Of a DNA stretch of 64,000 bases, positions 1-64,000 are shown piece by piece (position 1 is the first letter of the stretch; each line of letters starts with the position of its first letter). The stretch lies in assembly GCA_021018995.1 (NCBI GenBank), contig CM037590.1, positions 87,824,097-87,888,096 on the forward strand. The letters are read 5' to 3'. The position numbers were made by a program, and so were the translations under genes. The stretch is from Chloranthus sessilifolius (taxonomy: Eukaryota > Streptophyta > Magnoliopsida > Chloranthales > Chloranthaceae). The notes under the pieces were generated by a model, which was not told the DNA's origin, did not search any database, and saw only the letters and a program-made list of their open reading frames with translations.

Positions 1-519
1 CTTAGACTTCGCGAGTTACCTCGCGAGGCTCTACTGAGTTCTGAACAGCGCGAGGTTCTATGTCTCACTTGATCTTCGCGAGATTGGCTTTGCCTTCGCC
101 AAGATGTTTTCTTTCTTGAATGGCGTGAGAACTGTGCGAGGCATTCTTCTTCTGATAATTGCATCCCACGGTGATTGCGCGACAGCTGCGTAAGGAATCT
201 TTTGAAGCTCTCTCTCCTCAGCCGTTCTAAGTGAACTGCACAAGATTGAGAGAGGTCTGCTTTGAACTGCACGACACTATGCGATGTGTTCTACTCTTGA
301 GCTTCGCGAGAGCTGCGCGAGTTTGAGTTTCTGAAGCTCTTCAGTCATTCATCTGAGGGATATTTGGTGCCAAAGCAGGCTCCTTAACAGGATTCTTGGC
401 CTTATTTCACTACTAATTATTACCTACACAAAACACTTAACAAGAACTTATTAGGTGGCTAAGGGTCTAGTCAAAGGTTAAGTTAAGGGGTGAAAAGTGG
501 TACTTTTCAGGTCTTAACA
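1..519 (-). repeat. Partial LTR, family E (5' end of the LTR)
   Basis: Read on the minus strand, the LTR starts at 519 with TGTTAAGACC and runs off the left edge of the window. It is homologous to the two arms of solo LTR E2 (46363-46463 and 60662 onward), which share the start, the stretch around 361-470 and the stretch around 60-330. It contains many CTCGCGAG-type words (for example near 8, 20 and 48), the motif typical of this family. The base after the end is not a polypurine tract but a D-like LTR fragment, so this copy looks inserted into that fragment. Whether it is a solo LTR or part of a full element cannot be seen. Minus-strand reading frames at 58-243 are not conserved in frame with E2 and are not called genes. 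Confidence 0.85.
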
Positions 520-1661
520 GTCATTCTACAATGGAAATACTCTCAGATCTGTAGTCTGTGCAGCTAGGAACCTACAATAGCACTCTTAACCTTACCCAAT
601 TACAGATCTAACTTCGCTCCTCGCTACTCCAAGAAACTTAGCCAACCATGGTTGGGCTAAAAGAGGGAAATGGGATTTCTTTGCAAGCTCTAATCTCCAG
701 AATTTGGCTCAGATCTCGATCCTCCCCCAATTATAATTGGGGTCTCTATTTTTCCTGCCAAAAATCCCTTCTAAAAGGTTGTCAGAGTTTTTTTGAGTAC
801 TATTAAAGCATGTGGGTCAGTTTGGGCTTCCTAGGGCATCTTTTGGAACTATTGTGTCGGTCACCAAGTGCCTCGGGTTGCGTGCAGTAAGTCACCAAAT
901 CACAACGTGTGCACAGTTGAATTTCTGAGAAGTTCTGCACACAATTTTGACAGGTTCAGGAAGCTTTCGACAGGTTCAGATAGAGCTTTTTGGTCCTTTC
1001 GCTAGGTTCTCAGATTTGTTCGATAGGTTTTGATTGGAAGAATCTTCGCTTAGAGTTCCAGCCTTCTCAGTCCTTGGGTTGGAGTATTCGACAGGTTGGA
1101 GAGACTCTTCGATAGGTTGGAGAGCCATTTCGACAGGTTCCGCTCTACATTTCATCGTTTTGATAGGTTTGCTTTCAGTCTTATCGAAAGGCTCAATCAC
1201 CCTTCGATAGGTTCTATTTCAGCATTTTCATCTCAATGGGTTCAAGAAACCATTCGATAGGTTCCTTTGACACTTCAGGCAGGTTTTCGATAGGATGGTT
1301 TCTTCTTTCCTTTCAGCTGCTCGATAGGTTATGAGATCCTATCGAACTCCTCAATCCAGATGAATTCATCCTTCTACTTTCAGCTCCGATTGAAGTCCTT
1401 AGGTGACCAATCGATAGGGCATTTTTAGCCTATTTTCACTTCCTTCGCCTTGCCCTGCTGTAGCCACGTGCTCCAAGGGTCAGTGAGGTGCTACCCTCTG
1501 GTGTGCTATTGATGGATTTATCCTGTGCTGAGAGATAGCTCCTTTTTGGGCATTCTTGAGTGCTTTTCTGTATTAGTATCTTTTTTTGTTGTTGTCTACA
1601 AAATGCACTTGACAAAAGCTTATTAGTGTGCTCACAGGTCTATCAATGGTCAGGTTATTAG
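520..1661 (-). repeat. D-like LTR fragment, truncated at both visible ends
   Basis: This matches the part of LTR D at about 38810-40000, including the block 'ctctcagatctgtagtctgtgcagct', the CGATAGGTT/CGACAGGTT words, and the end '...gtctacaaaatgcact...caatggtcagg'. The last 40 or so bases of the LTR, the polypurine tract and the 3' UTR are missing. At 1661/1662 it joins directly to the broken 3' ORF of element A. At 520 it is interrupted by the family E LTR. Motif copies at 1089, 1110 and 1131 are exactly 21 bp apart. It could be the 3' LTR of A after a deletion, or an unrelated D-family insertion; the visible part of A's 5' LTR does not overlap it, so the two cannot be compared. Confidence 0.8.
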
Positions 1662-2852
1662 TGGTAGCTCCCTCTTCCATTGTGGGTGCTGCTTGAGTTA
1701 GCAGCTCCTCCTCCTTCTCAATTAAAGTGCCACTGATCCCCCACTGTTTCTTTTCACATTTGCTAGCGGCCAGGTTGAGGGTCTCCTCATTCATCTGAAA
1801 GTGGTAGCCCCCCAATTGCAGTAGAGCTATAATGAGCCTACAATAGGGCAAGGCATGGGGCTTCTGCTCTCTCTTAACCTTCTCATGTATGTCTTTCATC
1901 CCTTCAAAAATCAGCTTTGCAGCATCAAATTAGTGGTTGTAGTGGAAGGAGTGGAGGGCATCAGCAATTGGGGACCTCCTCTCTTGCTGGTGCCCAGAGC
2001 AGTATACATTTTTCCTCAAAACACCATCCATAAATCTCAGTCTTTGAGGCAGGTCTCTCTTCCTAATTGATACCCCAGAGGCTGTGATCCCTCCAGTGAG
2101 CTCTTTGGCAATCTCAGGGATGGATGCAGTCAAAGGTGCACCTAAGCCACACCCTGGGTTGTATGTGGCAGGAATCCCAAGTATTTCAGTAATTGCTGCC
2201 TGGTTGAACAACATCTCAAAATCATCAATCAAAACTAGTAATACATGCTTTCCATCATCCCCAGTCTTTACCCTGATGTTCTGGTAAAATAACTGCACTA
2301 GTCTAAGGACGACTAGTGTAGTGGGGGCCTGAGCAGGGGTAGCAGTGAGGCCTTGGTGAGGGATTCTATTGATGCAGCAATCTCAAGCTGTTCCTCAAAG
2401 AAATCCTTGTCAAAGGCAGTCTCAGCCTCTAGCTTGATGGCAGCCACAAACTCAGAGGGAGTTCTGAGTGACTCATCCTCTTCCTCTTCCTCAGGGGCCA
2501 CCTCAGGGACCACATCCTTGCCCTTTTTTTATTTTTTCTTAGCTTTTTCAGGGCTATTAGCAGCAGAGGGGTGGTCTCTAGCTCTCTTCTTTGGTGTTGC
2601 TTTCTTCTTGACAACAGGGGCAATAGAGGCCACAGCCTTGGCCTTCTTCATAGGAGCAGCCCTCTTTTTAGGTAATTCCACTTGGGGCTCAACAGGTGGT
2701 GTAGGAATCTCAGAGGTCTCCACAGTGGAGGCCTCTACAAGCCTCATAGATTTCCTAGTGGTCACAGGGCTGCCAGTAGGGGAAGGGTTCAGCATGGCAG
2801 CCAAAGTATCAATAAATTTAGAACTCGTGGCCATGGCTACACAAATTCTCAA
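1662..2852 (-). pseudogene. Element A 3' ORF (plant transposon-protein core), broken and 3'-truncated
   Basis: Four overlapping minus-strand pieces (2529-2852, 2313-2513, 1930-2298, 1573-1899) form one gene with frameshifts. The start is MRICVAMATSSKF; either ATG (2852 or 2834) is possible. The N-terminus is Pro/Lys-rich with nuclear-signal-like runs (PKKRAAPMKKAK, KKKATPKKRARD). The core has LFYQN, LIDDFE and GHQQERRSPIADAL, which align with the 3' ORFs of C, D and F. This core resembles the domain annotated in databases as 'putative plant transposon protein' (Pfam Transposase_32, from memory). No hydrophobic membrane span is seen. The reading frame runs past the deletion junction at 1661/1662, so the C-terminus is lost. 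Function unknown; in Athila elements this position is often called env-like, which the sequence does not support here. Confidence 0.75.
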
Positions 2853-4003
2853 AAATTAGGTCTTTAAGCTCAAAGATTGGGTAGTTCACACTCCAAGGAT
2901 AATATTGCACACAAATTTCTCTCTACTCAACACTGAAAATCACAGCCTAATCAATTGAAATAAAAGAGTGAGAATACTTACCACCAAATTGCTAGGGTTC
3001 CACTTCAAATGTTGCACAGTGGATCAAATCTCCCCAAACCAAGAGTAAAATGACCGGGAGTAGTTGTAGAACACAATAGTAAGAGCAGAGTGCTTGGGGT
3101 GGAGTGGTATGTGTAGTTAAGGAGAAGGAATGGAGAAGGAAAGTTGGAGGTGTGGCAATGGAAGCTAGGGCAAAGAAGAAAATGAATGTAGAAATGAGGA
3201 CTTTCTAAGGGTATTAGTGGGTGAACCCGTGCCTCGCGCAATTCTTGCTAGGTACTCGCAGGCCAAAATCTCCTCGCACGCTAAGGTGAGATCTCTTGAG
3301 AAATGCAGTCGCGGAGAAGAAAATTGCCTTGCGAGGTCATCACGGAGTTGATTGGAATCTGAGTCACGCGAGAGGACATGTGTGTCCCTCATGAGAAAAA
3401 AATATATTCAGTGAGCCAAGGGCCTCGCGAGGTAGGTTACAGTACGAGCTTCAGAAGTTCTGCTCGCGAGGCTCTCACGAGGTTTACGAAATAGCTCGCA
3501 AGTGTGAAATTGAGTCCATTGAGCCTCGCGAGAAAGATAAATAAACTCTTTTTCAGTGTTGCACATTGGCTTATGCATCAATACTGAAATTCACCTTGCT
3601 ATTGTGCATCAGCACCAACTTTCCTCACATTTCATCTCTTTCACCTCTGATAAGTTTATGCCCAGTACCAACATATGCATAGAATAAATTTCCTAGAATT
3701 CAAAAGATTTTAACATACAACAAGTCCATTCACATTTAAATGACAGTAGGTCCATGCACATTTAAATGACAGCAGGTCCATGCACATTTAAATGACAGCA
3801 GGTCCATGCACATTTCAATCCCACCAGGAAGCATGCTCATGAAATTCAGATGACAAAACATGCACATCAACATCAACAATAACACAACAAAAAATAAAAC
3901 ATGCATATCAACAACAAAGCAAAGACAACACATGACAGAGTTTTAAATAAAACAGCACAAAAATTTAACAAGTATGGTATACAGTGTACAGAGTTATGGA
4001 TCA
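2853..4003 (-). other. Element A INT-to-3'ORF gap with CTCGCGAG motif cluster
   Basis: This is about 1.15 kb with no credible gene. From about 3226 to 3535 there are many words of the type CTCGCGAG (3430, 3471, 3525 and decayed forms such as CTCGCACG and CTTGCGAG). The same words dominate the family E LTRs at 1-330 and 60780-61400. The cluster lies upstream of the 3' ORF start at 2852, where the other elements carry their own family motif. Short ORFs here are translations of the repeated word. The part from 3640 to 4003 holds a 26-bp tandem repeat and AT-rich sequence. Confidence 0.7.
3723..3826. repeat. 26-bp tandem repeat, about 3.7 copies
   Basis: The units start at 3723, 3749, 3775 and 3801, with consensus 'ggtccatgcacatttaaatg' followed by 'acagca'. 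The last copy is partial. It lies downstream (minus strand) of the integrase stop in element A. No function is apparent. Confidence 0.9.
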
Positions 4004-5285
4004 CTAAGCAGTGGGAGGTTCATGAAGGTGGATGGTCTGAGGAGGCTCCACAGAATTTTCTACACAAATCTTCAGCCTTTTACCATTCACTTTCATGTTC
4101 TTCCCAGAAATGGAATCCAAGATCTCCAAAGCACCAGATGGGGAGGCATTGGTGATAGTATAAGGCCCATCCCACCAGGATTTTAACTTTCCTAGAAAGA
4201 ATTTTAATTTAGAGTTAAAAAGCCAACCCTTGGTACCAGCCTTGAAGTCCTTCCTCATCAGTTTCTTGTCAAAGAATGCCTTGGATCTCTCCTTGTAAAT
4301 TCTTGCATTTGTTAGGTTTCCAGTCTCGACTCATCAAGCTCTGACAATTACAAATTCCTGTGTGAACTAGCAGTAGTTAGATCAATATTCAGTGTTTTAA
4401 TAGCCCAGTAGGCTCTATGCTCTAACTTTACTGGTAGATGATATGTCTTGCCATATACCAGTCTAAAAGGGGACATGCCAATAGGGGTCTTATAGGCAGT
4501 CCTATAAGCCCACAGTGCATCATTCAACTTTTGTGCCCAATCCTTCCTATCTATCCTCACAGTCTTCTCCAAGATGTGCTTAATCTCCCTATTATAAATT
4601 TTAACTTGCCTACTGGTCTATGGGTGGTAGGGAGTTGCAATCTTGTGTATAACAAAATACCTTTTCAGCAAATTCTCAAAAGGCTTGTTACAGAAATGAC
4701 TTCCCCATCACTAATGATAGCTCTAGGGGTGCCAAATCTAGATAAGATATTGTCCTTTAAATTTTTGACGACAACTGTGGGGTTATTTGTCCTTGTGGTA
4801 ATGGCTTCAACCCACTTGGACACATAGTCCACTGCCACAAGGATAAAATTGAAACTAATAGAAGGAGGAAAAGGACCCATAAAATCAACCCCCAGATGTC
4901 AAATAGTTCTACCACAAGAATGGGTTGCAGTGGCATTGAATCTTTCTTGGAAATGCCTCCCAATCTTTCTTGCAAATCAGGCTTTGCAATGTATGTGTGC
5001 ATCTTTGAACAAAGAGGGCCAGTAAAACCCACATTATAATACTTTTGCAGCTGCCTTTTTATCATTAAAGTGAACTCCACAGGCTCTCTCATGGAACATA
5101 GAAAGAATGTTGTGAAACTCACTTTCAGGCACACATCTCCTAACAATCTAATCTGCACAATGCTTATATATGTAAGGGTCCTCCCACATAAAATGTTTGA
5201 CCTGAGAGAAAAATAGGTCTTTGTCCATCTTGGACCAATGAAGGGAGATCCTACGAACAGCAAGAAAATTCACAATGTGTGCAAA
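4004..5285 (-). pseudogene. Element A integrase, multiply frameshifted
   Basis: Integrase inserts the element cDNA into the genome. Pieces in several frames cover the domain: the zinc-binding and early core region (4757-5263), the first core Asp in [10 protein letters not shown] and the second in IISDG (4665-4880), [24 protein letters not shown] (4348-4572, first and last residues only needed to recognise it), and a C-terminal domain with the GPY/F-like WWDGPYT (4004-4258). The protein ends with EPPQTIHLHEPPTA. At least three frameshifts or stops separate the pieces, so it cannot be functional. It follows RNase H with no gap, as in the Athila polyprotein. Confidence 0.85.
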
Positions 5286-5738
5286 TCAGGGCACACTAGA
5301 CTGAATAGCCAATAGCTGCTCATCAGGGAACAATTCATTAATAGGTGTAGCTGCACATTCATCCATCACAATTGTAAAGAGGTAGTCAGCCACCACATTC
5401 TCCACTCTTTTCTTATCCTTGATCTTAAGATCAAACTCCTGCAACAGGAGGATCCATCTGATCAGTCTTGGTTTGGCATCCTTTTTGGTTAGGGTTGAGT
5501 GATCAGTAAACACAACAATTTTAGACCCAGGCAAGTAGGGTCTAAACTTATTCACAACAAACACAATAGCTAATAGCTCCTTCTCAATTATGGTATAATT
5601 GATCTGAGCCTCTGCTAGTGTTTTGCTTGCATAATAAATCACTGCAAGCAGCTTATCCTCCCTCTATCCTAGGATAGCACCTATGGCTAGGTCTGATGCA
5701 TCACACATCAATTCAAAGGGGAGTGAGTAATCTGGGGC
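5286..5738 (-). pseudogene. Element A RNase H, broken
   Basis: RNase H removes the RNA strand during reverse transcription. The piece at 5286-5642 carries [15 protein letters not shown], the EKELLAIV motif and VFTDHSTL, all typical of Ty3/gypsy RNase H, followed by the tether [15 protein letters not shown]. An in-frame stop just upstream (near 5667) separates it from the RT piece that contains the start of RNase H (CDAS region). '[13 protein letters not shown]' lacks the usual KYLLSK residues, so a short internal deletion is also present. Confidence 0.85.
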
Positions 5739-6893
5739 CTAGATTATAGGAGCAGTGGTAAGGCACCTTTTTAAAACCTCAAAGGCCTCAAGGCACTCAG
5801 CAAAAAATTCAAATTGCACATCCTGACATAGTAGGTGGCGCAGTGGCTTTACAATTCTGCTGAAGTCCTTAATGAACCTCTTGTAGAATCTAGCATGTCC
5901 TAAAAAGGATCTGATTTGTTTGACAGTCCTGGGTGGGGGCAGGTGTGAGATCAGGTCCACTTTAGCTTTGTCAACCTCTATACCTCTGTGGAAGACCACA
6001 AGGCTTAACACAATATCTTGTGTTAGGCCAAGGTGACTCAAGCATTTGCTAAAGCGGTCCCCATAAACTAAAAAATCATCCATAAATATTTCTAAGAACT
6101 TGTCAATCATATCAGAGAAAATGGCATACATGCACCTCTGAAATGTAGTTGGGGCATTGCACAGTCCAAAAGACATCCTCCTGTAAGCAAAGGTACCAAA
6201 GGGACATGTAAAAGTGGTTTTTTCTTGATCTTGAGGATACACAGGGATTTCGTTATACCCTGAGTATCCATCAAGAAAGTAATAAAATATCTTCCCAGCT
6301 AATTTATCTAGAATTTGGTCAATGAAAGGGAGAGGGAAGTGGTCTTTCCTGGTCTTGGAGTTGAGTTTTCTATAATCTATGTAAACTCTCCAGCCAGTGG
6401 TCTCCCTGGCTGGCATCAATTCCCTAGAATCAAAAATAATAACTGTTATGCCTAACTTTTTGGGTACCACCTGAATAGGTGACACCCACTCTGAATCTGA
6501 AATGGGGTAAATCACCCCTGCATCCAACAGTTTTACTATCTCTTTCAAGACCACCTCTTGCATGTGAGGATTAAGCTTCTTTTGCATATCCCTAGAGGGT
6601 TTTGAACTCTCTTCCAAGTGAATTTTGTGCATGAAAACTGAGACATCAATGCCCCCAAGATCAGCAATTATCCACCCCATAGCCTTTATGTGCTTCTTGA
6701 GAACACTCAATAATTCCTCCTCCCACTCACTAGTGAGAGAGGAAGAGATATTCACTGAAAGTTTTTTGTTTTACCCCACAAAGGCATACTTTAATGTATC
6801 TGAGAGCTATTTTAGCTCCAGATTAGGGAGGCTTTCAATGGAAGGCAACAAAGGTGCCTTGGTGGTTTGAGGAAGGGATAGGAATGTAGGTTT
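5739..6893 (-). pseudogene. Element A reverse transcriptase with short internal deletion
   Basis: A continuous 338-codon stretch (5739-6755) covers the RT palm and fingers: WVSPIQVVPKK, WRVYIDYRKLN, DHFPLPFIDQ, YFLDGYSGYNEI, FTCPFGTFAYRRM, and the catalytic FMDDF. Compared with C, about 20 residues are missing in frame after the FMDDF block: 'HLGLTQDIVLSLVVFHRG' replaces the segment that holds CEETNLLLSWEKSHF. The PR-RT linker upstream (6756-6893) has a frameshift. The RT catalytic aspartates remain, but the thumb region is damaged. Confidence 0.85.
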
Positions 6894-7622
6894 TCAGCTG
6901 GAATGATGCACTAGGCCCATAGAAGACTCTATTTTGGTGTTGTCTTCTGTCATGAGAGCTTGGGCCTCCTTCTCAACCATACTCCAAATATTTTCCAGGT
7001 TCTTAGCCACATTATTCCAATCCAACAGATTGGATAATTCTTCTTCCACAAGGCCATCTAGTACATCTATTGCACAGTGGTCCTCAATGTCCATCTGAGG
7101 CTGCCTGGCAGTATTGTACACATTTAATTGAGCCTTCATATTCCCAACGCTCACCTCCATCACCCCTAACCTGCATTGAACGCAAGCATTGGCAGTGGCC
7201 AAGAATGGCCTACTAAGGATGACAGGAATTGGGGTTTTACTTTTGCAAGGGTCCATGTCCAAAACTAAGAAATCAGCAGGATAGTAGAACTTGTCCACCC
7301 CCCCCAAAACATCCTCTACCGCACCCACAGGTCTTCTCTCAGACCTATCAGCCAGCTGGAGTACAACTGATATGGATTTTAGCTCCCCCAAACCCAGCTC
7401 CTCATATACAGAATATGGGAGCAGGTTTATATTGGCCCCTAAGTCCAAGAGGGCTCTACCAATGGTGTGGTTTCCAATTATGCAAGGGATGGATGGTACC
7501 CCTGGGTGCTGCAATTTCTTAGGTGTGGCTATAGACAACACTGATTCAACATGTTCAATAATAAAAACCTTTTTGGATAATTGCACCCTTGCTTTCCTTT
7601 TTTGTGTGCAGAGGTCCTTCAA
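6894..7622 (-). pseudogene. Element A aspartic protease
   Basis: This 242-codon stretch has the retroviral-type protease signature of this clade, ALLDLGANINLLPYSVYEELGL, with the catalytic Asp in DLGA, and the downstream ILSRPFLATANA (ILGRPF in other copies, G changed to S). It starts at an internal ATG (MKDLCTQKRKARVQLSKKVF); the real protein is part of the gag-pol fusion, so this ATG is not the true start. It processes the polyprotein in an active element. It is open by itself but lies between broken gag and RT. Confidence 0.85.
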
Positions 7623-9472
7623 GAATTTGGCATAGGCAAGGACCTATTTTATAGCATCAAGCAGGGGCAAATTTATCTTGACCTGCTTGAAGGTCTCCAT
7701 TTCCTCCATATCAGCATTCCCCTTATCAAAAGGAGATGGGCCAGCAAGTGCATGAGGAAATGGCACCTGTGAGACTGCTGAAGCCACTGCTGCATGCCTA
7801 ATAACATCATAGTCAAATTTTTGTTTTTTCCTTTTTTCTTCATTTATTGCTTGTTGTTGGAGCTCAACATTAGCCCCCTTATTTTGTCCTTACTACTCCA
7901 TAGCAGGGGATAAATTCACTAGTTTTTCAACACTCATATTTTCTTCTTTTTAACTCTTCATGGCCACCTCAGCTGCCTTGCCCACTAAATTGTCAACCTC
8001 CCTGCCACTCCTTAGGGTAGTGATTGTATTAGCCTCCTCATGGGTAGAGGAGCCTTCTCCATTTATGTACTGCCCTTTAGTGTTGACTAGGCAACCTGCC
8101 CTCCTCTCTCTTGTTCAAAACATTATAGATTTTACCCAGCTGGTCCTCTATTTTTTTTAATTTTACCCATGACAGTTCACAGTTTGTGCCAAGTTTCCCA
8201 GATTTTACATTGATGTCAGCATTTGCTCTTCAAAGGAAGAGGATCTGAGCTGTGGTGGGGGCAAGACTACTAATTTGGCTGTGGGGCAGGCAACTGAAAA
8301 TTCTGCCTAGGTGCATATCCCTAGTTGAATTGGTGTTGATGTCTATATGGAGCTGCCAACTACTGCTGTTGGAGTTATTGGTATGTGTCTTATCTCCACC
8401 TCAAATTTGGGTTCTCCATGTGTACCCAACAGGTTGCTGCCCATATGCCTGGGCAGCATTGGCATGTTCCATAACTAATTCAGGGAACTGGTTGGCTGAT
8501 GGACATTCTTGAAGTGAATGTGTGGGAGATTGACATATCAGACATGCCTCTTCCACTTGTGCAGCCATCCTAGGCTGCATCACATTCATCAATTTATCAA
8601 ACTTTAAACTCAAATTATCCACCTTCCTTTCTAATTCACTCTACACCTTGACCTCATACATGCCACCTCTAAGGGCGGATTCTTTCACCAATTTAGCTGG
8701 GGCCTGACTGTCATTGCGAGACAGTGATTCCTGCTGCATGAAATTCTCACCTATAATGTCAAACAACTCCCATGCCTCATCAGCTGTCTTGTGGAGGTAA
8801 CCCCCACATGAGGCATCCACCATGTCCCTACTTTTGAGATTAATTCCTTGGTAAAAGATTTACACAAGTTATCACTATGAAATTTAGTGGTAGGGACATT
8901 ATTTTAACATCTCTTAAAACCTATCCCATGCTTCATAAAAATATTTAGTTGAGGATTGAGGAAATGAAAGTATGTTTGTCCTCATCTAACTAGTTTTATT
9001 CATGGGAAAGAATTTTGCCAGAAATTGGCTTTGAGGTCACTCCATGTCTGGATGCTATTGGCTAGGAGCTTAAAGAGCCAGGTGTTGGCTTTGTCCTTTA
9101 GGGAAAAAGGAAAAAACCTCAGTTTAGTGGCTTCAGGTCCCAAGCCAGTAATGTTAAATGTGGTACAAAGTGCCAAGAATTGATCAATGTGCTTGTAAGG
9201 ATCTTCCTTACTAAGCCCATAAAAAGATGGCAGCATGTTAATGGTGGAGGACCTGATTTCATAATTTTCCTCAACTTAAGGAAATTGTATATAAAAGGGA
9301 GATGTGTAATCCCAGGTGCATTTTATTCCTTCAAAGTCCTTCGCCTCTCAGCCATCACAATTGGCTCAGTTTCAACAATAGGGGTTGGTGTGTTGTTTCT
9401 CAGTCTAAGGACCCTTTCAACCTCAAGATTTAGAGGTTCCAACTCAGTGTTAAGGAACCTTCTACCAAGCAT
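7623..9472 (-). pseudogene. Element A gag, broken
   Basis: Gag forms the virus-like particle and binds RNA. The start is an ATG at 9472 (MLGRRFL, matching MFGRRTL in B and C). The conserved capsid-region MLPSFYGLSKEDPYKHIDQF lies at 9000-9236, MVDASCGG at 8641-8823, and a CCHC zinc knuckle CLICQSPTHSLQEC (C-x2-C-x4-H-x4-C) within 8401-8622. At least four frameshifts or stops interrupt it. The 3' part (7623-8400) is the low-complexity gag-PR linker with further stops. Confidence 0.8.
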
Positions 9473-9789
9473 ACACACACATAATCAGCAGGTAAAGAAA
9501 ATACTCAGCACACTTAAAAAATTTGCAAACAATTACAGCTAAATAGCTTTACAACTAAATTATTGACAGGGAATTCCACACAAATGGTCTGAGTTTTAGG
9601 GTAAAAGAAGTGCAAACAGAGCTAGCTAAACTCCAGCTGCAGCTCTAGCTTTTCCCTATTGTTTTTATCCAAATCTGCAAAAATTCTAAGAAAAATCAGT
9701 AGTACTTTTTATTCAAGCTAAGGCACAGCTACAAAGAATTTTCTAAACTTAATTAAAATATAACTCAAGTCTACTAAAAAAATCAATAT

Positions 9790-9806: not shown

Positions 9807-9812
9807 AAAACT

Positions 9813-46887: not shown

Positions 46888-46916
46888 GGCAATTAGGGTT
46901 AGTTTCAATCGGATAT

Positions 46917-55139: not shown

Positions 55140-56281
55140 ATGGCTGCCCTTATCCGACCACCGCGCCCAGCCCATGATCCGATGCGCATCCCTAACGAGC
55201 ATTATATCGATCGCCAATTCCAAACGGAGAATTTTTTCGACTTGGTGAAATATCGGAACATCGCAGAATGCGCACGGTCGATCGAATTCATCGAGGCCCT
55301 CCACTTGGAAATGCTACTGACCCCACCACCTATCGATGTCGCCCCGCGCATCATTCGGCTATTCTATCAAAAGATGGTGTGGGTGCCCGAGACCCTCTCC
55401 CCAATCGGCTTGCCGTTCATCACCATTGAGATCGATAACTGGCAATATAACCTCCACGCCGCTGATCTCGCCCTTGCTTTCAATTTCTACGAGGCTCGTC
55501 CCGTCAACCACCACCTTCCTACGGCTATCGAGCGTAGCCAAGATGATATGATCAACAATATGTGTGGTGGTTGTCGTGGGGACCGTCCAGCCACTGGCGG
55601 CCTTGTGTTGCCCATGGATATCCTCTTTTGGGATATCGTTATGGCCAATAACCTTTTGCCACATGGCACCAAGACCGAGCGGACTTTGGGTCGAGTGAAG
55701 GCGCTCTACGCGGCACACACCAATACTTGGTTTGATGCGCCTGGGTTGATGCTCGCGGAGATGTACCGCTGCCATAGTGATATCGCCATTGTGTCGTACA
55801 CCTTAAGCGTGCATGATTCTCCTCCACTTCCCACACTATGTGATGCACCTTACGGACCACCTTGGCTGCCCATCTATGACGATGAGGAGATGGGCGACAT
55901 GCAATTCTATCAATATGGTGTGAATGTGTGTCAAGAGTATCAAAGCGATCATCCGCAATCGGCCCCGGTTGAGGATGCTCCTCCTCCCGTCAAACCCGCC
56001 GCAGCCAACGTGGCGGTGTTAGGCGACCTGTCGAAGAGGTCCCCGATTTTGATGCCGAGGCGGCTGTTGCTCGCCTTGAGGTGCGGATGGACGGGCTGAA
56101 TGCACGGCTTGGTGGTGTGGATAGGCGGTCCCGGTTTCAAACCGCTCTCCTAATGCGGATGGCTCGCGAGTCATTCCCGGGTCGTGCCAACCATTTCATC
56201 GACGGCGCAAGAGCGGCAATGAACGAGGGGCGGGAACCGGAAGATGAAGATGAAGATGAAGATGATGATGATGATGTGTGA
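55140..56281 (+). pseudogene. Element F 3' ORF (transposon-protein core, acidic tail), one frameshift
   Basis: ATG at 55140 (MAALIRPPRPAHDPM). The core has PRIIRLFYQKMVWVPE, ITIEIDNWQYNLHAADLALAF, and HGTKTERTLGRVKALYAA, which line up with PRMVKLWYQNLVKV, IFIDDCDLTATYEDIG and GHSQERRTPILEALFHF of C. A one-base frameshift between about 55975 and 56030 moves it to another frame that continues EVPDFDAEAAVARLEV and ends in a run of Glu/Asp (56081-56281). It lacks the Lys-rich N-terminus of A, C and D. It is visibly GC-richer than gag-pol of the same element. Function unknown; no membrane span. Confidence 0.78.
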
Positions 56282-57471
56282 TTGTCTTGTTTTGTTGTGA
56301 AGTTTTTCTTTTCTCTGTTTGGTGTTTTTGTTTTTGTTTTTTTTTTTTTTGTTGTTGATGTATCGGATCGGTGGCTACAAGTTTTTAATGATAGTGTTTG
56401 CTTTGTTTTGGGCATATTGTGTGTTTGGTTTCTGGCTCTCAGTCAATCGATTGAGATCTCCCTCTCAATCGATTGAGCTACTTCATGCCCTCCTAAATTT
56501 TCCTCCGTCAATCGATTGAGACTTCTGTCTCAATCGATTGACTGATGCACCTCAATTTGGACATTCCTGGTTTTGGTCTCTATTTTTAGCATGGTTCATC
56601 AATCGATTGACATTTAGGTGCCAATCGATTGACACTTACTTGGTCCGCTTGATCAACCCTATTTGGAATAGGGGTGTTTTTCCAAATATTTGATGTGGAG
56701 CTCGGATTTACCATCTTTGCCCTCTCTTGTCAATCGATTGACACAAACATGTCAATCGATTGACTGAGACTCCTTTCTAACTATTTCTCCATGCACCGAC
56801 TTCCGAATTTTTTTTTTATTTTTTTTTAAAGTGTCCCTCTTTTAGGAAATTCTTCGCTATTTAAGGCACTTGCCGGGTCCTCCTTTTAGTCCATATTTGC
56901 AGTTTCCGTCCCCGCCTTGTCGCCATGTCTTCCATCCGTCCTCGTCTGGCGTCATGATCCAAAAGTTAATGGAGCCCTTGCGCATAAGCGTGCGATACAC
57001 CGCTCCACCACCCATCGATTGGTCCACCATGCCATCATCCACCTTGATGACGAATCTGTTTCATCTTGTCATCACCAACCCTCCCCACCCTTATCACCAC
57101 CTCGCTAAATCCCACCCCGGGCGGTTGGAATTCTGAAGAAATGTGGCGCTCACGCTTCCAAAGCCAGGCGGCATCTCTACCATGGCGGACTAGAGGATTT
57201 GTTTTCGGTTTTTAGGGTCTAATTTTACATGTCTTTAGGGTAGGGTTATTTTTCTGTTATTGTTGTTTCAGTTCGGTTTGTTTTCGTTTTGGGATTCGTT
57301 TGTTTCGTGTTGCATCACGTTAGATTTTGCTTTACTTTGTCATAATTTTCTTTTTAATAACAATATAGTTTCGTATTTGTGTTTTCTCTCTTTCCCTTGC
57401 TCGGTTGTTTTGTCCTTTGTTTGCATAGAGCAGGTTTGGGGGAGGCCTTCTTCCCTTTCTCCACATCATCA
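56282..57471 (+). other. Element F region after the 3' ORF, with palindrome array and a possible small ORF
   Basis: Palindrome pairs start at 56443/56465, 56508/56530, 56599/56621 and 56730/56752, all 22 bp apart. A TATTTAAG box at 56858-56865 follows. Downstream 56870-57194 is GC-rich like the 3' ORF and could be a decayed small gene (MSSIRPRLAS from 56925, then another frame with HKRAIHRSTTHRLVHHAI to 57108). A PPT-like tract ggtttgggggagg lies at about 57432-57445. Confidence 0.55.
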
Positions 57472-57507
57472 CCAATGAGGACATTGGCCCGTTCAGGTTT
57501 GGGGGGG
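57472..57507 (+). promoter_or_regulatory. Internal second polypurine tract with hairpin (F)
   Basis: CCAATG-AGGA-CATTGG (57472-57487; 6-bp stem, AGGA loop) then aggtttggggggg (57495-57507). Compared with AACAGTG/CACTGTT in B and D, both arms differ but still pair and the loop is the same. Confidence 0.75.
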
Positions 57508-57523
57508 TAATTGTTCTTCTTTT

Positions 57524-57567
<44 letters not shown>

Positions 57568-58469
57568 CTTTTAGCTGTTCTCGGATTTTTGAATGTTTAT
57601 CAGTCAATCGATTGAGCATACTATCTCAATCGATCAACTGATAAACATTAAAGGATATAAGAATTTGTGGCTTAGTCAATCGATTGAGTCCACTCAGTCA
57701 ATCGATTGAGTCCACTCAGTCAATCGATTGAGTCCAATCAGTCAATCGATTGAGAATTTGGTCTCAATCGATTAACTGATGGTTGGCAAAAGCTGTAATT
57801 TAATTGATTATCCATATTTGTGAGCATGAAAAATTCTTCCTGAAATTTCTTTAATCAATGCTATCATACCATGGTTATTTTATGAGTGCCCATAAGGTGT
57901 AGATATTGAACATTAATGATCATGAATCATGCTTAAAAATAATTGTTTTCATCACTCACTTTCAATCTCAAAATCGGAGGATTAAGTGTGTAACATGGAA
58001 TCCTAAAGATCACAAAGAAAGACTAAAACCTTGAAAGTTTTTGAAACACTTGTCCTTGTTCTTAATGAGTGCTGAAATCAATTCGGAGTATCTTTGAAAT
58101 CCTTGTTCCAATTGTTAAAACCCATTGATTTGTGATTTTATGTGTGTTATAACATTACACTAGAAATCATTGTGTACTAACTTAAGGCAAATGGGCATAT
58201 TTTACCATCATGAAAGGAAATGATCTAAGGCCATCATTGGTTAAATGCGCTTAAACTGACCCACCTTATAAATTTATCCTTCTAGTACACCTTTGAGCTT
58301 ATTGGAAATTTACCTTTATACATTCTTTGATAAGCTGCAATAACCTTTAACCCTTTACCGCTTCTGAAAATTCAGCTTGCCCTTACTTATTTCTGAGAAA
58401 TTAGGAACAAGGGATGAAAATGAGTGAAACGAGAGTAAGTGGGGATTATATGTGTTATAGTGTGTACTG

Positions 58470-58500
<31 letters not shown>

Positions 58501-59324
58501 AAGAAAAGGAAATTGTAAAAACAATGAAAAATATATTGAGAAGAATGGTGAGAGACTAGAAAAGAAAAAAGAATAAAAATACAAAATCAGTAGTTGTTTC
58601 TTTTCCAATTTCTCAGAAACTTTTGAATCCATCCTTCCTTTCTTCTCTTAACCTTAACCCGAGCCTCATTACAACCTTAGAAAAGACCTTTTTGATCCAA
58701 TCATGAGTGATGAAATGCCTTGTGGAGAGTAAGTACACAATTGTCTATGGTGCTTGATATATGCATGCTTAAAATACAGATATCTTTCTTAATGAGATTT
58801 CCCTTATAATTCTTTGATACACCATATATCTTTAAACTTGTGAGATTTTCTTCTAATTGTGTTACAATTCCATCTCATTCATCGGAAGTGATTTCATTCT
58901 GAGTGTATACCCATGGTGAGGATTGGAGTCTAGACATGTGATCTAAAAGTTCCAGTTTAAGTTTTTTTTCCTCTGACATAAGAACTTTGGGCAGTGATGA
59001 TCTCATGACATTGAGGCATGAAATATGAACATTAGAAGACAACGGTCTGAACTGAATGTGGCATAAAATGGAATGAACGTGGTTAGATGTATTCTAAAAA
59101 GATTTTTCAGGAGCGTCTAATTGCTTAAGGACATGATTAATCAATCCTGATAGCCTTGAAGTTTGTAGGTACCTTCAACTGAAAACCTTCAGGAGACACA
59201 ACTCCTCCACTAGGGATCACCTAGGGGTTTAAAGGCTTGTTGCACATGCTAAGTGCAATCGTGTTCCCTACGAAAGTGGCATTTAAATTTTAGGATGTTA
59301 GTTTATTTTTATATTTATCATTCT
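57508..59324 (+). other. Element F 3' UTR
   Basis: Poly-A run at about 57529-57563; palindromes at 57604/57626 and five in a row at 57676, 57698, 57720, 57742 and 57764 (22 bp steps); then about 1.5 kb of AT-rich non-coding DNA with another poly-A run at about 58471-58497. The block 59161-59286 is strongly conserved with B, C and D. No gene. Confidence 0.8.
59161..59286 (+). other. Conserved 3' UTR block near the PPT (F copy)
   Basis: Shared with B (12397-12519), C (19570-19691) and D (40099-40220) in the same position and orientation, with the centre 'ctccactagggatcacctag' nearly unchanged. Contains short inverted repeats (CTAGG/CCTAG). Neighbouring sequence is far more divergent. Confidence 0.8.
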
Positions 59325-59362
59325 CTTTGCTCGAGGACTAGCAAAGTGTAGGTTTGGGGGTG
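59325..59362 (+). promoter_or_regulatory. Element F polypurine tract with abutting hairpin
   Basis: CTTTGCT (59325-59331), loop CGAGGACT, AGCAAAG (59340-59346), then PPT aggtttgggggtg (59350-59362) touching the LTR. Confidence 0.88.
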
Positions 59363-60656
59363 TGATCGGTGTTGAAATATGACTATAATTCACACTTTAA
59401 ATCCTACATTTAGCTGTTCAATGAAAGCATCTGATGGTTGTTGTGAGGTTTTGATGTTTACAGGTGTTTCTGACAGCTAGATCGTTCAAAGTGCATAAAA
59501 GAAGGAAATTACAGGCTAAAAAAGAGATATGGACAAAAAGGTCCAAAGAAGCATTGAAAGCCATGAAGAGAATCAACCTCCATCAAGAAAGGGGAGACTT
59601 TGCATTGAAGAGTCAATCGATTGAGGCATTATGGTCAATCGATTGACAGATGGAGAAAAACTCAACCCTAGAAAGTCAATCGATTGAGACATAAAATTCA
59701 ATCGATTGAGCCATGAAGGCAGAAGTGTCCTAAGGGAATTCGAACACTAAGTCAATCGATTGAGACTTCTGTCTCAATCGATTGAGGCAATTAGGGTTAG
59801 TTTCAATCGGATATTATAAATAAGAGGCTTACGGCTTTGAATAAGAAAGTTGTTTTTGTTTGATTGAGAGAGCTTTTTGAATAGAGAGTTTTTATTTCTT
59901 AGAGAGTTTTTATTAGAGAAATTTGTGTAATAACTAGAGACTTTTGTAAGAGAGTTTTCGGAGAGTAGTAAAATTGTGTTCTTCTTTTTACACCTTCTTT
60001 GCTCTTTACATTGGGAATGATTTTGAATACAATTGAAGATCTTGCAACAAGGATGACAGGCTAAAGGCTGTAGGTCAAGGAGGATGCGATCCCCAGATAA
60101 GTACCTATATTTTATGTTTAATGCCATAGTTTGATAATTTCATCATCAAATCGTTTTTCTTAAAGTGTAGTGATTCTGTTTTTAGTGTTTTGATCTAAAA
60201 TACCATGAGATACGCTATGCTTTTCACATGATTCTTACCCCGATTAGGCTGAGTCATTGTTTTTAGATAGGGTATGCCGGGTTAATGATCACGCTTAATT
60301 ACTAGTCATGTTTCTCTTAGAATGATGGTGTGTTGATGTTCATAAAATTGTGGGTTTAAAAATAGAAAAGGGTATAAATCTGGGGTAGCAAATTCCTTGA
60401 TCTTGTTTTTAAAATTTGTTCTTAGATTTCTCATTACATAATTTTTAGATTAATTTGTTTTCTTTCTTGCACTTAGAAAAGTGTTAACTCTTGGTAAAAA
60501 TTAAAATCTGCCCCTTGGTACTTCCTCGGGGATATTTTCTAAATCTCTAGGAAGAATTGAATAAAATTTCAGATTTCCCTGTGGGTTCGACACCCTTGTT
60601 CTTGCCTTACTAGAACAGATCTTGTACACTTGCAAGGGTTTATTTAAAATTGATCA
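59363..60656 (+). repeat. Element F 3' LTR (1294 bp)
   Basis: Matches the 5' LTR with few changes (a one-base difference in an A run near 59535, a cluster near 60055-60075, another near 60235-60250). Palindrome pairs at 59613-59785, TATA at 59815-59822. Confidence 0.95.
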
Positions 60657-60661
60657 GTAAT

Positions 60662-63038
60662 AATCAGCAGTGAAACAAGGCCAGGAATCCTGCTAAGGAG
60701 CCTATTTTGGCACCAGAAGTTCCTTAGAAGGATGGACTCTGAATCCAAACCTGGAATGAGACTCGCGCAGTCCAACTGAGCTTCCTAAGACTTTACAACA
60801 ACTACTCGTGCAGCTCTCTCAAAGCTCAAGGGTAGAACACATCACGCAGTCTCACGCAGTTCAAAGCAGACCTCTCTCTACCTTGCACAGTTTGCTCAGA
60901 ACGGCTGAGGAGAGAGAGCTTCAAGAGACTCTTCGTGCAGCTGTCGCACAGTGGCCGCGAGATGTAATTATCAGAAGAGAACTCCTCGCACAGTTCTCAC
61001 GCCATTCAAGAAGAAAGCATCCTCGCGAAGACGGAGCCATCCTCGCGAAGATCAGTCAAGACATGAAGCCTTGCACAGTTCAGAACTCCTTAAAGCCTCG
61101 CGAGGAAACTCGCAAAGTCCATTGAAGAGAAGTGCTCACGAAGTTCTTGCGCTATTCAAATCTATCCTCGCAAAGATCAACCCAGCGATCGCATAGCTAC
61201 CTCGTGACTGCTTGAACTACAACCCTGTGACATCTGAGGCTTTGATGTCTACTCAACCTCGCGACTGCCTGAAGCGCAAACCAAGGCAACCTCACAACGG
61301 TTGAAGCTTCAATATCAAATCATCCTCGCGAAGAGCAAGAGCTACCATGTGACAAGTCTGGGAAACAAAGGGGCTACCTAGCGAAGCTCTAAACTTCAAC
61401 TTCCATCTCTTCAGCAGAGGACCTTCTGGGAATTTCTAGCAATTAGGGCACGCGCTCCCACACTCAAATATCTATGCACGTGCCCCAAGGCATCCAAGGA
61501 TCACTATTCGACCATGTGGCATCATTAAAATTAAGGTTTCCCTAACCCTAATGCGCTGCCACACCACTGCTATATAAACCCATACTTAGCTTAGGTTTAG
61601 ATGTTCTAAAAATTCCTGGAATAACTGGGAACACACCTCATTTCTTGGAGACTTGATCTGAGATCATTTTTCTTTTCTTTTTTATAGCCGTAAGTAGTTT
61701 TCTTTTTCTTTTCCCTTCTCTCCATAGTCCAGCACTTGCTAACTATGTCTTTGTATGCTTTTTGAACTAGATCAATGGAAGTTTTGTAATAGGATTTGTA
61801 CTCTGTGGGATTTGTGTTTGAATGTGAGATGCTCTGTGCAAGGCTGCTGCCTTGTGATCCGCCATTGCTTTGGTTGTGATTCAAAGCAATGGAGGACTGA
61901 TTCTAAGGGCCACTCAGATCTAAGTGACCTATGTGTCTGGGCTATCATGGTCATATACAGCCTTAGCCCCACCATAGGACCCACTAGATCTGAAATCCCC
62001 ATGGGAGCTTGAGCTGATAGCTTTGTAACAATGGTGGTGGCAGTGATATTCTTGTTTTGTCTTGGGCTCCGTGAGGAGGATAGCCTCTGGGATAGTTTGT
62101 GACCATTCAAGTGGACAGGCTATAGCCTTAGGGTGATTCTAATCCATCGATCCAAGATGGATCCTTCTTTACACCTGAGCTTGTAGAAGCCTGGTGGGAG
62201 ATTGTACAGAGGTAGACTCCCCTACATTTGTATAGATCCGCTATTAGATGTTAGATCTGATCTGGTTATAGAGATTGTAGGCTTGTGACTGAACCATTGT
62301 AGCCTCACCCAAGCAATGGACAGCTAGATCAAAGGTTGTACTCAATCTCTTGTTGGTTCTGTGTCTGGGCTATCATGGTCCTATACAGCCTTAGCCCCAC
62401 ACTTAGATCTTTAGAGGTTGAGGTTCCCTATGGATTCTTGAGCTGGTAGCCTGGATGAAATAGTGCCTACAATGATTAACTTGTTTTGACCCATCCCTGG
62501 ATTGTGGTTCCCCTATAGGATAGTCTGTGGCCATTCGAGTGGACAGGTTATAACCTTAAGGGATTAAATCATGGCAGAGAGATGGGTTGGATCCTTTCTC
62601 CTCAGTGGTGATAATGTAGCCATTGGACAGGATTTCTATAACATCAGATCTGAATATGAGTTATAAAGCTCCTCTGATCTAGGCTCAATGACATACTTCT
62701 CACCCTTTTATATTTATTTTCCACACTCCATCCATCCTCTCAACCCTTTCTGTAGTTTAGAATACCTAGAATAAGTGACCTTAAACTCCCCTCCTTTTTA
62801 GGACTGCCAGATCTGTAGTCAGATCTGGAGGGACTACTAGAGATGGCTCCCTTGGAGCCGTAGATCACCTTTCCTTGTGGGACAAACTCTTACTTATCAA
62901 AACTTACCACAATGGACCCTGTATCTTGCAGGTCTAGGATTTCTTAGTTGTGCTGATTTCATCCCCTGTTTTATCTTGATTTTAAATTTCTTTTACCACA
63001 ACCAATAAAGCAAGCACACACTCAGAAATCCGCCAACA
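60662..63038 (+). repeat. Solo LTR E2, second arm
   Basis: Continues from 46463. The first part (60780-61400) matches the family E LTR at 1-330 on the other strand and is rich in CTCGCGAAG words (61021 and 61041 are 20 bp apart). TATATAAA at 61571-61578 is a putative TATA box. Two 32-nt hairpins at 62092-62123 and 62520-62551. Ends CCGCCAACA at 63038, followed by the ttggg target site. No internal element sequence lies between start and end apart from F, so the element is reduced to one LTR of about 2.48 kb. ORFs inside are not conserved in the sister copy. Confidence 0.88.
61571..61578 (+). promoter_or_regulatory. Putative TATA box of LTR E2
   Basis: TATATAAA, about 170 bp downstream of the CTCGCGA-rich stretch. 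Confidence 0.6.
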
Positions 63039-64000
63039 TTGGGGTTACAATCGACTAAATTTGTTTCACTTTCTCTACTGAAAAGACTTTCTTGGATAGG
63101 TGTATCCTGGATTGTCTTTTATGGGTGTATAGTTCTTTTAAAAACTTGGCATAGGCTAGGACTTGTTTAATGGCATCAAGTAAGGACAAATTGATTTTTA
63201 CTTGCTTGAAAGTCTCCATCATTTTCTCAATTTTTTCTTTCCTTTATCAAAATGGGAAGGTGCTTGTAGTGCCTTAGGAAATGGCAAATGTGGGATTGCT
63301 CCCTCACTTGCAGCCTTAGCCAATGGGGCCTCTTTCTTTTTTATTTTTTTCTTTTCTTGAGGATCCTTATTATCCTCTTTATTCACAGCTGGTTGCTCCT
63401 TCAAGTCCACCAGTGGTGGCCTTAGTTGTGTTCTGGTAGAAATCACTTCATTTTCTTCCTCCAAGTTCCTCACAAGCTCACAGCCCACTTGGTTGTCCAC
63501 TAGCCTAGCACTTCTCAATGTTGTAACAGATTTGGCTTCCTCATAGGTGGAGGAAACTTCACCCACTACAAACTGCCTTCGTGGGTTGTCCTGTGCTTGG
63601 CTAGGCAGCCTTCCTCCTCTTCTAGTCAGGGCATCAGACAGCTGACCAAGTTGATCCTCTATCTTTTTGATGCTCTAGTTGTGAGAGTGCACAGTTTGGA
63701 ATAAAGAGTTCAAGCTCTGTAGTGAAGATAGAACTTATTTCTCAAAGGAAGGTGCTCTCGTAGTTGAAGGGGGTGCAGATTGCTGCACAGGAGGAGATAC
63801 AGGTTGAGCCATGGGTTGCTAATACTGAGGCCTTGGGACATAACCTTTTCGATAAGGCTGAGCATTTCTGTAGGGCAGGGGCTACTGGGGTTGTTGCTGC
63901 TGGCTGGGGTATGCATCTTGTCTCCACCTCAGATTGGGGTGGTTCTTCCATTGATACCCAGTAGCAGGCTGTTGCCCATAAGATTGAGCTGCAGCCACAT
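63039..64000 (-). pseudogene. Element D gag-PR junction and gag, cut by the window end
   Basis: Just beyond E2 the protease N-terminal region resumes on the minus strand (pieces such as VFSVEKVK and the LSKKVFLAEK-like stretch near 63070-63110), then the conserved junction (TFKQVKINLSLLDAIKQ equivalent near 63150-63220). 63219-63566 has TLRSARLVDNQVGCEL, and 63710-63964 has QSEVETRCIPQPAAT. It is homologous to B at 33180-34100. Frameshifts and stops are present. The zinc knuckle and capsid region lie outside the window. Confidence 0.85.

Follow-up and report, generated by a model that had tools for sequence, protein, structure and literature searches.

The arrays closest in anatomy to those described here are the repeated motif (RM) boxes of the Sireviruses, which, in the available text of PMC2829016, are element-specific palindromes present in 8-32 copies, most of them from 200-400 bp onward within the upper LTR half and again upstream of the ENV-like gene, forming CpG islands and lying upstream of a TATA box. 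An initial annotation of the present locus had instead named the VANDAL transposons and their VANC proteins as the nearest parallel. That comparison holds for short, family-specific, non-coding motifs that change between related families, but the Sirevirus RM is closer in anatomy; as far as the available parts of PMC5735166 and PMC10398659 describe them, VANDALs are DNA transposons with motifs of 8-9 bp in tandem repeats, and VANC carries DUF1985 and DUF287, its binding and the resulting methylation loss having been demonstrated. Retand, a Ty3/gypsy element like those in this study, carries tandem arrays specific to each family between pol and the 3' LTR, together with an extra ORF (TRP28) whose product is proposed to bind DNA; in the accessible portion of PMC11963269, however, the ORF is antisense with PF04195, the arrays are counted as tandem repeats, and palindromic sites common to the LTR are not described. 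For sunflower, the available text of PMC12844716 reports strong local hypomethylation of LTRs in one Athila clade and, drawing the analogy to VANC, suggests that factors encoded by the elements might be involved; the hypomethylation there is tied to no motif. No report of arrays such as these in Athila elements was found in the portions of the literature covered (mostly titles and abstracts, with few subscription journals), and among the listed papers with a full-text match to a motif string, PMC2829016 was by title the sole one on plant retrotransposons.

The window analyzed here, a stretch of 64,000 nucleotides, contains several retrotransposons (designated A to F), among which C encodes protease and RT in a single frame and C, B and F have integrase pieces after RT. 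The order gag-PR-RT-INT, followed by an ORF between INT and the 3' LTR as in the Athila lineage, is that of Ty3/gypsy and differs from the Ty1/copia Sireviruses; we provisionally call the elements Athila-like. An additional RNase H (aRH) marks Tat and is absent from Athila (PMC6317226). The ATHILA ORF-1 domain (pfam03078), which is reported in 16% of Athila elements and is not required, was not among the Pfam matches of the scanned ORFs.

The recurrence of CpG-bearing motifs in control regions was confirmed by a palindrome scan of 26 region classes (part of the window's bases, 30 shuffles per region), in which matching LTRs, integrase-to-3' ORF gaps and F untranslated regions held 4-14 one-mismatch full palindromes each, compared with a shuffle mean of at most 0.20. 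Whole motifs were palindromes of 10-12 bp whose half-sites all terminated in TCG: CCTATCG in B, D and a D-like LTR fragment, CTTTTCG in C, TCAATCG in F, and CCTCG in E and the interior of A. Exact matches in the window numbered 47 for TCGATAGG, 20 for TCGATAGGTT, 45 for TCAATCGATTGA and 6 for CTCGCGAG, while TTTTCGAAAAG gave 9 matches counted strand-wise, at 5 places. The motif unit as first annotated did contain the CpG, but TCGATAGGTT is a single half-site plus flank, the unit being a CpG-centred 12-bp palindrome (CYTWTCGAWARG in B/D). Because a de novo EM search of 13 regions had a mixed outcome, with top scores exceeding those of shuffles in 11 of them (the exceptions being the B and D LTRs; five shuffles each, with fewer start seeds in the shuffles) and another or low-complexity pattern leading in the A gap, C gap, D gap and F 3' part, counts were taken from the palindrome scan and from doublet, spacer and CpG counting.

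Elements B, C and D lie on the minus strand. In B (TSD TTATT), an array at about 11580-12060 in the 3' LTR (10218-12337) has its counterpart in the 5' LTR (35433-37551), and the gap array (14640-15040) contains many 21-bp steps and phased CpGs. The CTTTTCGAAAAG-type sites of C (TSD CTTGT) form an array with 20-21 bp steps at 18990-19250 in the 3' LTR (17640-19510), with a further array at 31424-31672 in the 5' LTR (30103-31936), and recur in the gap at 23970-24330, where TATTTAAA lies at 24008. D has an array at 39270-39790 in an LTR at about 37905-40039 (outer end read by eye) and a gap array at 45070-45445 with TATATA at 45097. B and D use one motif, with CCTATCG half-sites in both LTR and gap, as had been annotated. 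The TCGATAGG-bearing LTR assigned to the A side does contain an array of CYTWTCGAWARG (940-1425, minus strand), but this LTR (520-1657) is a truncated one of D-like type that has become fused to A, not A's own. Of the two pieces of A's own 5' LTR, one has E as its nearest match (76% over 162 bp) and the other D (69% over 272 bp). The interior of A carries a CCTCGCGAGG array in the integrase/3' ORF gap (3220-3550, minus strand). E-family sites of the form CCTCGCGA(G/A)G occupy 1-330 on the minus strand, in an element of minus orientation whose LTR starts at 519, and a solo E LTR on the plus strand (46363-46463 and 60662 to ~63035, split by F) has an array at 60750-61400 and TATATAAA at 61571. 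F, also on the plus strand, has three TCAATCGATTGA doublets in its 5' LTR (46715-46887, with TATAAATA at 46917) and a copy of this array in its 3' LTR (59613-59785), as well as gap arrays of TCAATCGATTGA (54582-55037) followed by TATATATA at 55047, upstream of the 3' ORF. Beyond LTR and gap, F has additional arrays in the 5' (47839-48709, TCAATCGATTGA) and 3' untranslated parts, the latter beyond the 3' ORF at 56443-57775 with TATTTAAG at 56858. One copy of CTCGCGAG, at 56163, falls within an open frame at 55973-56278, which overlaps the F 3' ORF at its end.

The motifs were concentrated in LTRs and gaps and almost entirely non-coding, as evidenced by only three stray matches across five gag/pol regions, and they were nearly family-restricted, with cosines between the half-site spectra of LTR and gap arrays of 0.49-0.98 within a group and no more than 0.14 between groups. 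One motif is found in two otherwise unrelated sequences, LTR and gap, of a family; in B, C and D, LTR and gap gave no mutual similarity match despite their common sites. A wholesale change of motif between families, as initially annotated, was seen between the B-C-D, E-A and F groups but not within B-C-D, where half-sites are related and near-matches to the B/D consensus occurred in the C LTRs (three) and C gap (three) and one near-match to the C consensus in the D gap. As with the Sirevirus RM, palindromes were present in at least 8 copies in the LTR and upstream of the ENV-like ORF, a likeness that is best in F, B/D and C and weaker in E/A, for which the LTR and the gap belong to different elements. 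The available text of PMC2829016 gives a mostly CGG-CCG core for the RM, with Tnd-1 as an exception, whereas the main half-sites here end in TCG without CGG.

The sites were also regularly spaced. In B, C, D and F they formed doublets 20-22 bp apart, but the doublet was not seen in the array spacings of E or the A gap. Of 14 step coordinates annotated, 12 have CpG at that exact base; at the other two, D 39406 and 39427, the sites (TTCAACAGG and TTTGGATAGG) have decayed and carry no CpG. With two-mismatch sites, 37 of 65 adjacent spacings in eight arrays of B, C and F measured 19-23 bp, where a uniform distribution would give 5.7. Once two 31-bp duplication steps in C are dropped from the rest, 26 spacings remain, and 25 of these fall no more than 2.5 bp from a multiple of 10.5. 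Phasing of CpGs alone was less general: z exceeded 3 in five of 14 arrays (B gap, C LTR, C gap, A gap and F 5' part) and was below 2 in nine, including both E arrays, the A-side LTR and the B LTR, and one of three coding controls reached 2.8. All 21 close exact pairs in F were spaced at 22 bp, yet their 16 distinct spacers had a mean pairwise identity of 0.33. Neither a fixed 20-22 bp doublet nor helical phasing is mentioned for Sireviruses in the available text of PMC2829016.

CpG content set the arrays apart as well. Among A-E, with array borders drawn after the sites were known, CpG density was 42 per kb in arrays versus 2.8-7.0 in the other parts counted, and CpG o/e reached 0.89 in arrays, as against 0.07 in the gag/pol of A-D and 0.19 in LTR stretches beyond the arrays. 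In the alignment of the B and D gaps, motif columns were 85% identical and the others 68%, while motif conservation in the A-side, B and D LTR comparisons was modest (86-87% versus 79-83%), and in comparisons between elements motif CpGs were not kept at a significantly different rate from other CpGs (four of four, p = 0.26-0.76). These data bear on the view that the arrays are functionless, the unit having spread within each family by tandem-repeat turnover and gene conversion. The C gap does contain a visible 31-bp tandem duplication, but the unrelated spacers of F alongside exact motif and spacing, the common sites of B, C and D in LTRs and gaps lacking similarity, and the retention of CpGs that without selection should have been lost as in gag/pol make this view very improbable.

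Palindromes with fixed spacing yet unrelated spacers point instead to binding platforms, and we tentatively read the arrays as cooperative platforms for a dimeric, sequence-specific DNA-binding protein at element promoters, a reading to which we give a little under an even chance. Each 10-12 bp palindrome would bind one dimer; B, C, D and F would place two dimers on one face of the DNA, separated by about two helical turns. Constant TCG ends with family-dependent outer bases would be expected if diverged members of one protein family read the half-sites, and since the core contains CpG, methylation may block binding, in which case the array could be an on/off switch linked to silencing. Each element would have two promoters, one in the LTR and, more tentatively, an internal one for the 3' ORF, and F possibly more. 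If the platform reading is correct, retrotransposon families living side by side in a genome mark their control regions with private docking codes, which would help to explain how one family is active while its relatives are silent, and a single regulatory plan would be common to Sireviruses and Athila-like elements, members of two superfamilies. The doublet rule (a pair of TCG palindromes spaced 20-22 bp) provides a search pattern for any plant genome.

Support for promoter placement from TATA-like boxes was borderline. Such boxes lay -60 to +100 bp from the downstream end of 7 of 17 arrays, compared with 3.6 in random non-coding sequence (p = 0.054), and, out to +300 bp, in 11 of 17 versus 7.2 (p = 0.052), whereas the Sirevirus RM cluster is followed by TATA. 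Within -60 to +100 bp they accompanied four of the five gap arrays (B, C, D and F), and none was found near the A gap, C LTR, D LTR or A-side LTR. The borderline chance control weakens the promoter claim but leaves our estimate for the binding arrays unchanged, since that rests mainly on spacing and family restriction.

Perfect palindromes could also act as RNA, with hairpins from paired copies aiding packaging or feeding small RNAs as proposed for maize Sireviruses, whose palindrome clusters have mapped small RNAs (PMC10760457, available text). Nine of 12 array windows did fold better than dinucleotide shuffles (z = -3.4 to -9.9), as did the C LTR window to a lesser degree (z = -2.3), but the B and E LTRs folded no better (z = 0.21 and -0.64, respectively), and since copies of a perfect palindrome can always pair, these z-scores may merely be a side effect. 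Helical phasing, and doublets that combine strict spacing with free spacers, are furthermore features of double-stranded DNA, and we regard the RNA explanation as improbable.

Two sources of the putative DNA-binding reader were weighed. An element-encoded reader, most likely the 3' ORF product, would activate or de-silence only copies with the matching motif, by analogy to VANC in VANDAL, and the gap array would make the 3' ORF promoter self-activating. In its favor, motif specificity tracks the element family while the TCG core and, across B, C, D and F, the doublet geometry persist, and one sunflower Athila clade loses LTR methylation in all contexts (PMC12844716, available text). In addition, 3' ORF pieces were identified in A (1660-2855, comprising a basic piece at 2532-2855, a PF20167-like piece at 1933-2382 and a piece at 1660-1929), C (22610-23596, a weak PF20167 match), D (43437-44787, broken frames) and F (55140-56099, 319 aa, a remote relative of the C 3' ORF), on the strands of their elements. 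Sequence comparison indicates that the 3' ORF evolves faster than pol pieces: identity between A and C was 39-44% in stretches versus 77% for RT pieces, and between C and F 23% (184 columns, E = 2e-6) versus 58% for integrase pieces. A, C and D have a basic piece at or before the 3' ORF start (in C, at the start of open frame 22610-23695), the most basic 20 residues having net charges of +7, +9 and +8, respectively, and no membrane helix was seen in 13 3' ORF pieces (19-residue mean hydropathy never above 1.56). Fast evolution, the basic piece and the lack of a visible membrane helix are consistent with a nuclear protein, and if such a reader exists, the often "envelope-like" ORF between integrase and the 3' LTR gains a testable regulatory role.

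Other observations count against an element-encoded reader. Pfam scans found no DNA-binding domain in the 3' ORF pieces; for seven of them hmmscan at E up to 10, which discards most very weak matches, returned PF20167 only, below the cut-off (best 31.8 of 45 bits), and neither DUF1985 nor DUF287, while three further pieces gave no Pfam match or a weak PH_15. Structure models were poor (mean pLDDT 41.4 for the C and 40.6 for the F 3' ORF). The family code proposed initially thus stands as to family restriction, non-coding location and a common motif in LTR and gap, but gained no DNA-binding or VANC domain. B retains the motif of D with hardly any recognizable 3' ORF, its trace being a 16-residue match to C among reading-frame pieces of at least 35 aa. 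Furthermore, Tnd-1, a Sirevirus listed without ENV in the available text of PMC2829016, has the RM ACAATCGATTGT, which is near the F motif and shares CAATCGATTG with it, and this indicates a host reader instead. We therefore slightly favor a host-encoded reader, to which we would assign not quite even chances, and consider an element-encoded one possible but doubtful. Its strongest form, in which a 3' ORF reader in each family co-evolves with a palindromic operator at the LTR and at its own promoter as a self-activating, possibly anti-silencing, family-private switch, is unlikely; it would amount to the VANC principle reached in another element class.

The fate of motif CpGs after insertion also argues against an element-encoded reader, and nothing in this analysis demonstrates anti-silencing. 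In raw counts, the B LTR pair shared 9 motif CpGs and had lost 7 in one LTR (other CpGs, 13 and 21), the C pair shared 8 and had lost 4 (others, 13 and 5), and the F pair shared 6 and had lost none (others, 11 and 4). Nine of the 11 motif CpGs lost in B and C had become TG/CA, and the LTR pairs of these elements gave no sign of lasting protection, their motif CpGs decaying much like the others.

Beyond the window, protein searches with the F and C 3' ORFs gave no matches among 1337 and 3221 candidates, respectively, the F doublet pattern had none in viral contigs, RT-based searches of viral and genome contigs confirmed none of 59 and 60 stretches, and a literature search for PF20167 by name found no paper. 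A plasmid search with an RT query matched three records, from Bacillus and Wolbachia, at 28-34% identity.

Nested Ty3/gypsy retrotransposons, which we take to be of the Athila lineage, fill the window, and their gag, protease, RT and integrase were recognised by Pfam. With element limits taken from LTR pairs and borders, element B occupied 10218-37551 on the minus strand (target duplication TTATT), with element C inserted within it at 17640-31936, also on the minus strand (target duplication CTTGT). Element D, on the minus strand and starting near 37905 as read by eye, was split by a solo LTR of family E with near-duplicate flanks (TTGGA/TTGGG), itself split by element F at 46464-60656 on the plus strand (target duplication GTAAT). 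Element A extended over about 1660-9840, its 3' end fused to a truncated D-like LTR at 520-1657, and a second E-type LTR end lay at 1-519. BLAST identity of the LTR pairs was 92.7% for B, 94.9% for C and 98.8% for F. A stretch of F adjoining its 3' LTR (59158-59362), the sole non-coding part of F with B, C or D matches listed in the self-search, showed 75-84% identity to 12338-12522 (B), 19511-19694 (C) and 40091-40223 (D).

The short motifs reported in the initial annotation were borne out by exact counts, and the unit seen in the printed arrays, which are clusters of sites in an LTR or in the gap between integrase and an extra 3' open reading frame (3' ORF), was a palindrome whose core contains CpG. 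The palindrome was TCAATCGATTGA in F, CTTTTCGAAAAG in C, CCTATCGAAAGG plus relatives (CYTWTCGAWARG) in B, D and the D-like fragment, and CCTCGCGAGG in E and the A gap, with half-sites TCAATCG (F), CTTTTCG (C), CCTATCG (B/D) and CCTCG (E/A). The two halves share the CpG by overlap in the F, C and B/D palindromes; those of E/A (3220-3550; 1-330; 60750-61400) abut as TCGCGA, a different geometry from the overlapping types. Bits per position beside the CpG peaked in C and in the LTR, 5' part and 3' part of F; values were moderate for the F gap and B/D, low for both E and A, and close to nil at CpGs of the F coding sequence, which served as a control. Action of the palindromes in RNA is improbable: 9 of 12 sequence windows folded better than shuffles with z below -3, but those of the B LTR and E LTR folded no better. 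In the C gap array a 31-bp unit is tandemly duplicated (24090-24200), which is one way of array growth.

Counted with one mismatch allowed over 26 region classes, the motifs were nearly family-restricted. F motifs numbered 12 for its LTR pair, 13 for the 5' part, 10 for the gap and 14 past the 3' ORF, with 0 in the other classes. The E LTRs contained 5 E motifs, the A gap 4 and the F gap one. C motifs were split evenly between the C LTRs and the C gap, 6 apiece, with single hits in the D gap and in D pol. There were 28 B/D motifs across five LTR and gap regions of B/D type, and outside that type 3 in C LTRs, 3 in the C gap and 1 each in A coding sequence, D pol and the D 3' part. When the five bases beside every CpG were compared without alignment, 11 arrays gave similarities of 0.70-0.85 among B/D arrays, 0.79 between C LTR and C gap, 0.49 between E LTR and A gap and 0.98 between F LTR and F gap, versus at most 0.14 across blocks. 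Among the matches listed in a sensitive self-search of the window, none joined the A, B, C or D gap to an LTR, and those between F gap and LTR covered motif-containing stretches only. Since gaps and LTRs are otherwise dissimilar, the same site stands at two unrelated places within one family. The proposal of a family-specific motif at constant LTR and gap locations was largely upheld. Both places were seen in the family itself for the B/D, C and F blocks. The E-A block depends on tying the A interior to E, a weak link: an A piece at one end was 76% identical to E over 162 bp, and the other A piece was closer to D.

Spacing within arrays was also regular. All 21 pairs of consecutive exact F copies less than 32 bp apart were spaced by exactly 22 bp, and the 16 distinct 10-bp spacers of these doublets had an identity of 0.33, so that they do not reflect duplication of a longer unit. 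Preferred spacing was 21 bp in B and D and 20-21 bp in C. Thus the steps of 20-22 bp noted initially hold firmly in F, B/D and C, but no such doublet was seen among the site spacings of E or the A gap. In eight arrays (B LTR, B gap, C LTR, C gap and four of F, homologous arrays not being double-counted), 37 of 65 adjacent spacings between two-mismatch sites were 19-23 bp, with 5.7 expected if uniform. After two 31-bp steps reflecting the visible duplication were dropped, 25 of the 26 remaining spacings were at most 2.5 bp from a multiple of 10.5 (13/14 with one mismatch, 26/30 with three). A stricter test, using all CpGs and no motif in 14 arrays and three coding controls, gave z values of 6.4 for the B gap, 5.4 for the C LTR, 6.6 for the C gap, 3.4 for the F 5' part and 3.1 for the A gap; z was below 2 in the other nine arrays, E among them, and one of three controls gave 2.8 at small amplitude. 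For C and for the B gap, longer-range phasing is therefore firm; E lacks it, and elsewhere it is suggestive.

The CpG observed/expected ratio in the arrays of A-E was 0.89 (204 in 4.9 kb, 42 per kb), somewhat favoured by array borders set after the sites were seen, compared with 0.19 in LTRs outside arrays (48 in 6.9 kb), 0.15 in the 3' ORF and 3' parts of A-D (86 in 12.6 kb) and 0.07 in gag/pol of A-D (48 CpGs in 17.4 kb). This gag/pol depletion (4157-9484; 24513-29922) stands against 0.70 in the F body within the same nest, suggesting that the lineages differ in methylation or age history. Because divergence between the C LTRs is just 3.1% when motif sites are set aside, most CpG loss in the C body should predate this insertion, the active lineage having retained high CpG density mainly at the motif. 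Between paired LTRs, motif CpGs were lost from one copy at 7/16 sites in B and 4/12 in C, 9 of these 11 to TG or CA, and other CpGs at 21/34 and 5/18, respectively; F, with 0/6 motif CpGs lost, is too young to tell. The pattern argues that selection acted in active copies and that inserted ones had no lasting protection from methylation; that the sites have no function is scarcely credible.

TATA-like boxes, identified by a pattern occurring elsewhere about once per kb and strand, lay downstream of the array in F, E and B LTRs; in the F, B, C and D gaps they stood beside the array's last sites or between them. In the interval from -60 to +100 bp around the downstream end of the array, 7 of 17 arrays had a box, versus 3.6 expected from random placement in non-coding sequence (p 0.054); extension to +300 bp gave 11 of 17 versus 7.2 (p 0.052). 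Four of five gap arrays had a box (B and D being homologous), and F was the sole LTR with one up to +100. In the F gap the last doublet is followed by TATATATA at 55047 and the ORF start at 55140, and F has further arrays ahead of gag and past the 3' ORF. A role of the gap as another promoter, from which the 3' ORF would be expressed, is inferred with borderline support.

In the available portions of published reports, Sirevirus RM boxes, the repeated motifs of those elements, resemble the arrays in placement, palindromy and CpG content and are followed by a TATA box, but reside in Ty1/copia elements (PMC2829016). The VANDAL/VANC system, the parallel initially invoked, shares the logic, with binding and methylation loss by the anti-silencing VANC proteins proven there, but concerns DNA transposons (PMC5735166, PMC10398659). 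Retand has an extra ORF, for which DNA binding has been proposed (PMC11963269), members of the Ogre/Tat/Athila group commonly carry extra ORFs whose domains are tied to lineage (PMC6317226), and one sunflower Athila clade has low LTR methylation in all contexts (PMC12844716). A literature search, mostly without full texts, found no earlier report of such arrays in Athila-type elements.

The 3' ORF pieces of A, C and D were related (39-58% in stretches of at least 33 residues), and that of F was a remote relative (23% over 184 columns, E 2e-6). RT pieces were 77% (A) and 69% (B) identical to C, and integrase pieces 67% (B) and 58% (C) identical to F. A reader, that is, a protein docking on the sites, might tentatively be sought in the element itself: site specificity tracks family, a TCG core persists across families, and one array lies upstream of the coding sequence of a fast-evolving protein. 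Host-encoded readers have close to an even chance, because Sirevirus Tnd-1, listed without ENV, carries ACAATCGATTGT (PMC2829016), which has CAATCGATTG in common with F, and because B holds good arrays despite hardly any recognisable 3' ORF, its pieces of at least 35 aa in 13000-15200 giving only a 16-residue match to C. Compared with D (40040-45860), B (12338-15300) lacks about 2.6 kb from the 3' part to the gap, where the 3' ORF would sit, with 13911-14679 in B corresponding to 41722-45077 in D.

The first 3' ORF pieces of A, C and D contain strongly basic stretches, followed in C and D by P/S/T-rich pieces (0.33-0.41). The usual hydropathy limit for a membrane helix is 1.6; no such hydrophobic stretch was found in 13 3' ORF pieces, the highest 19-residue mean being 1.56. 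Judged from its sequence, the product resembles an envelope less than it does a nuclear protein. PF20167 ('putative plant transposon protein') matched C and A weakly, under its cut-off, and structure models (pLDDT near 41) were uninformative on fold. A second open frame at 55973-56278, which includes a basic stretch and has an acidic tail, overlaps the F 3' ORF end and may reflect a frame break or an intron.
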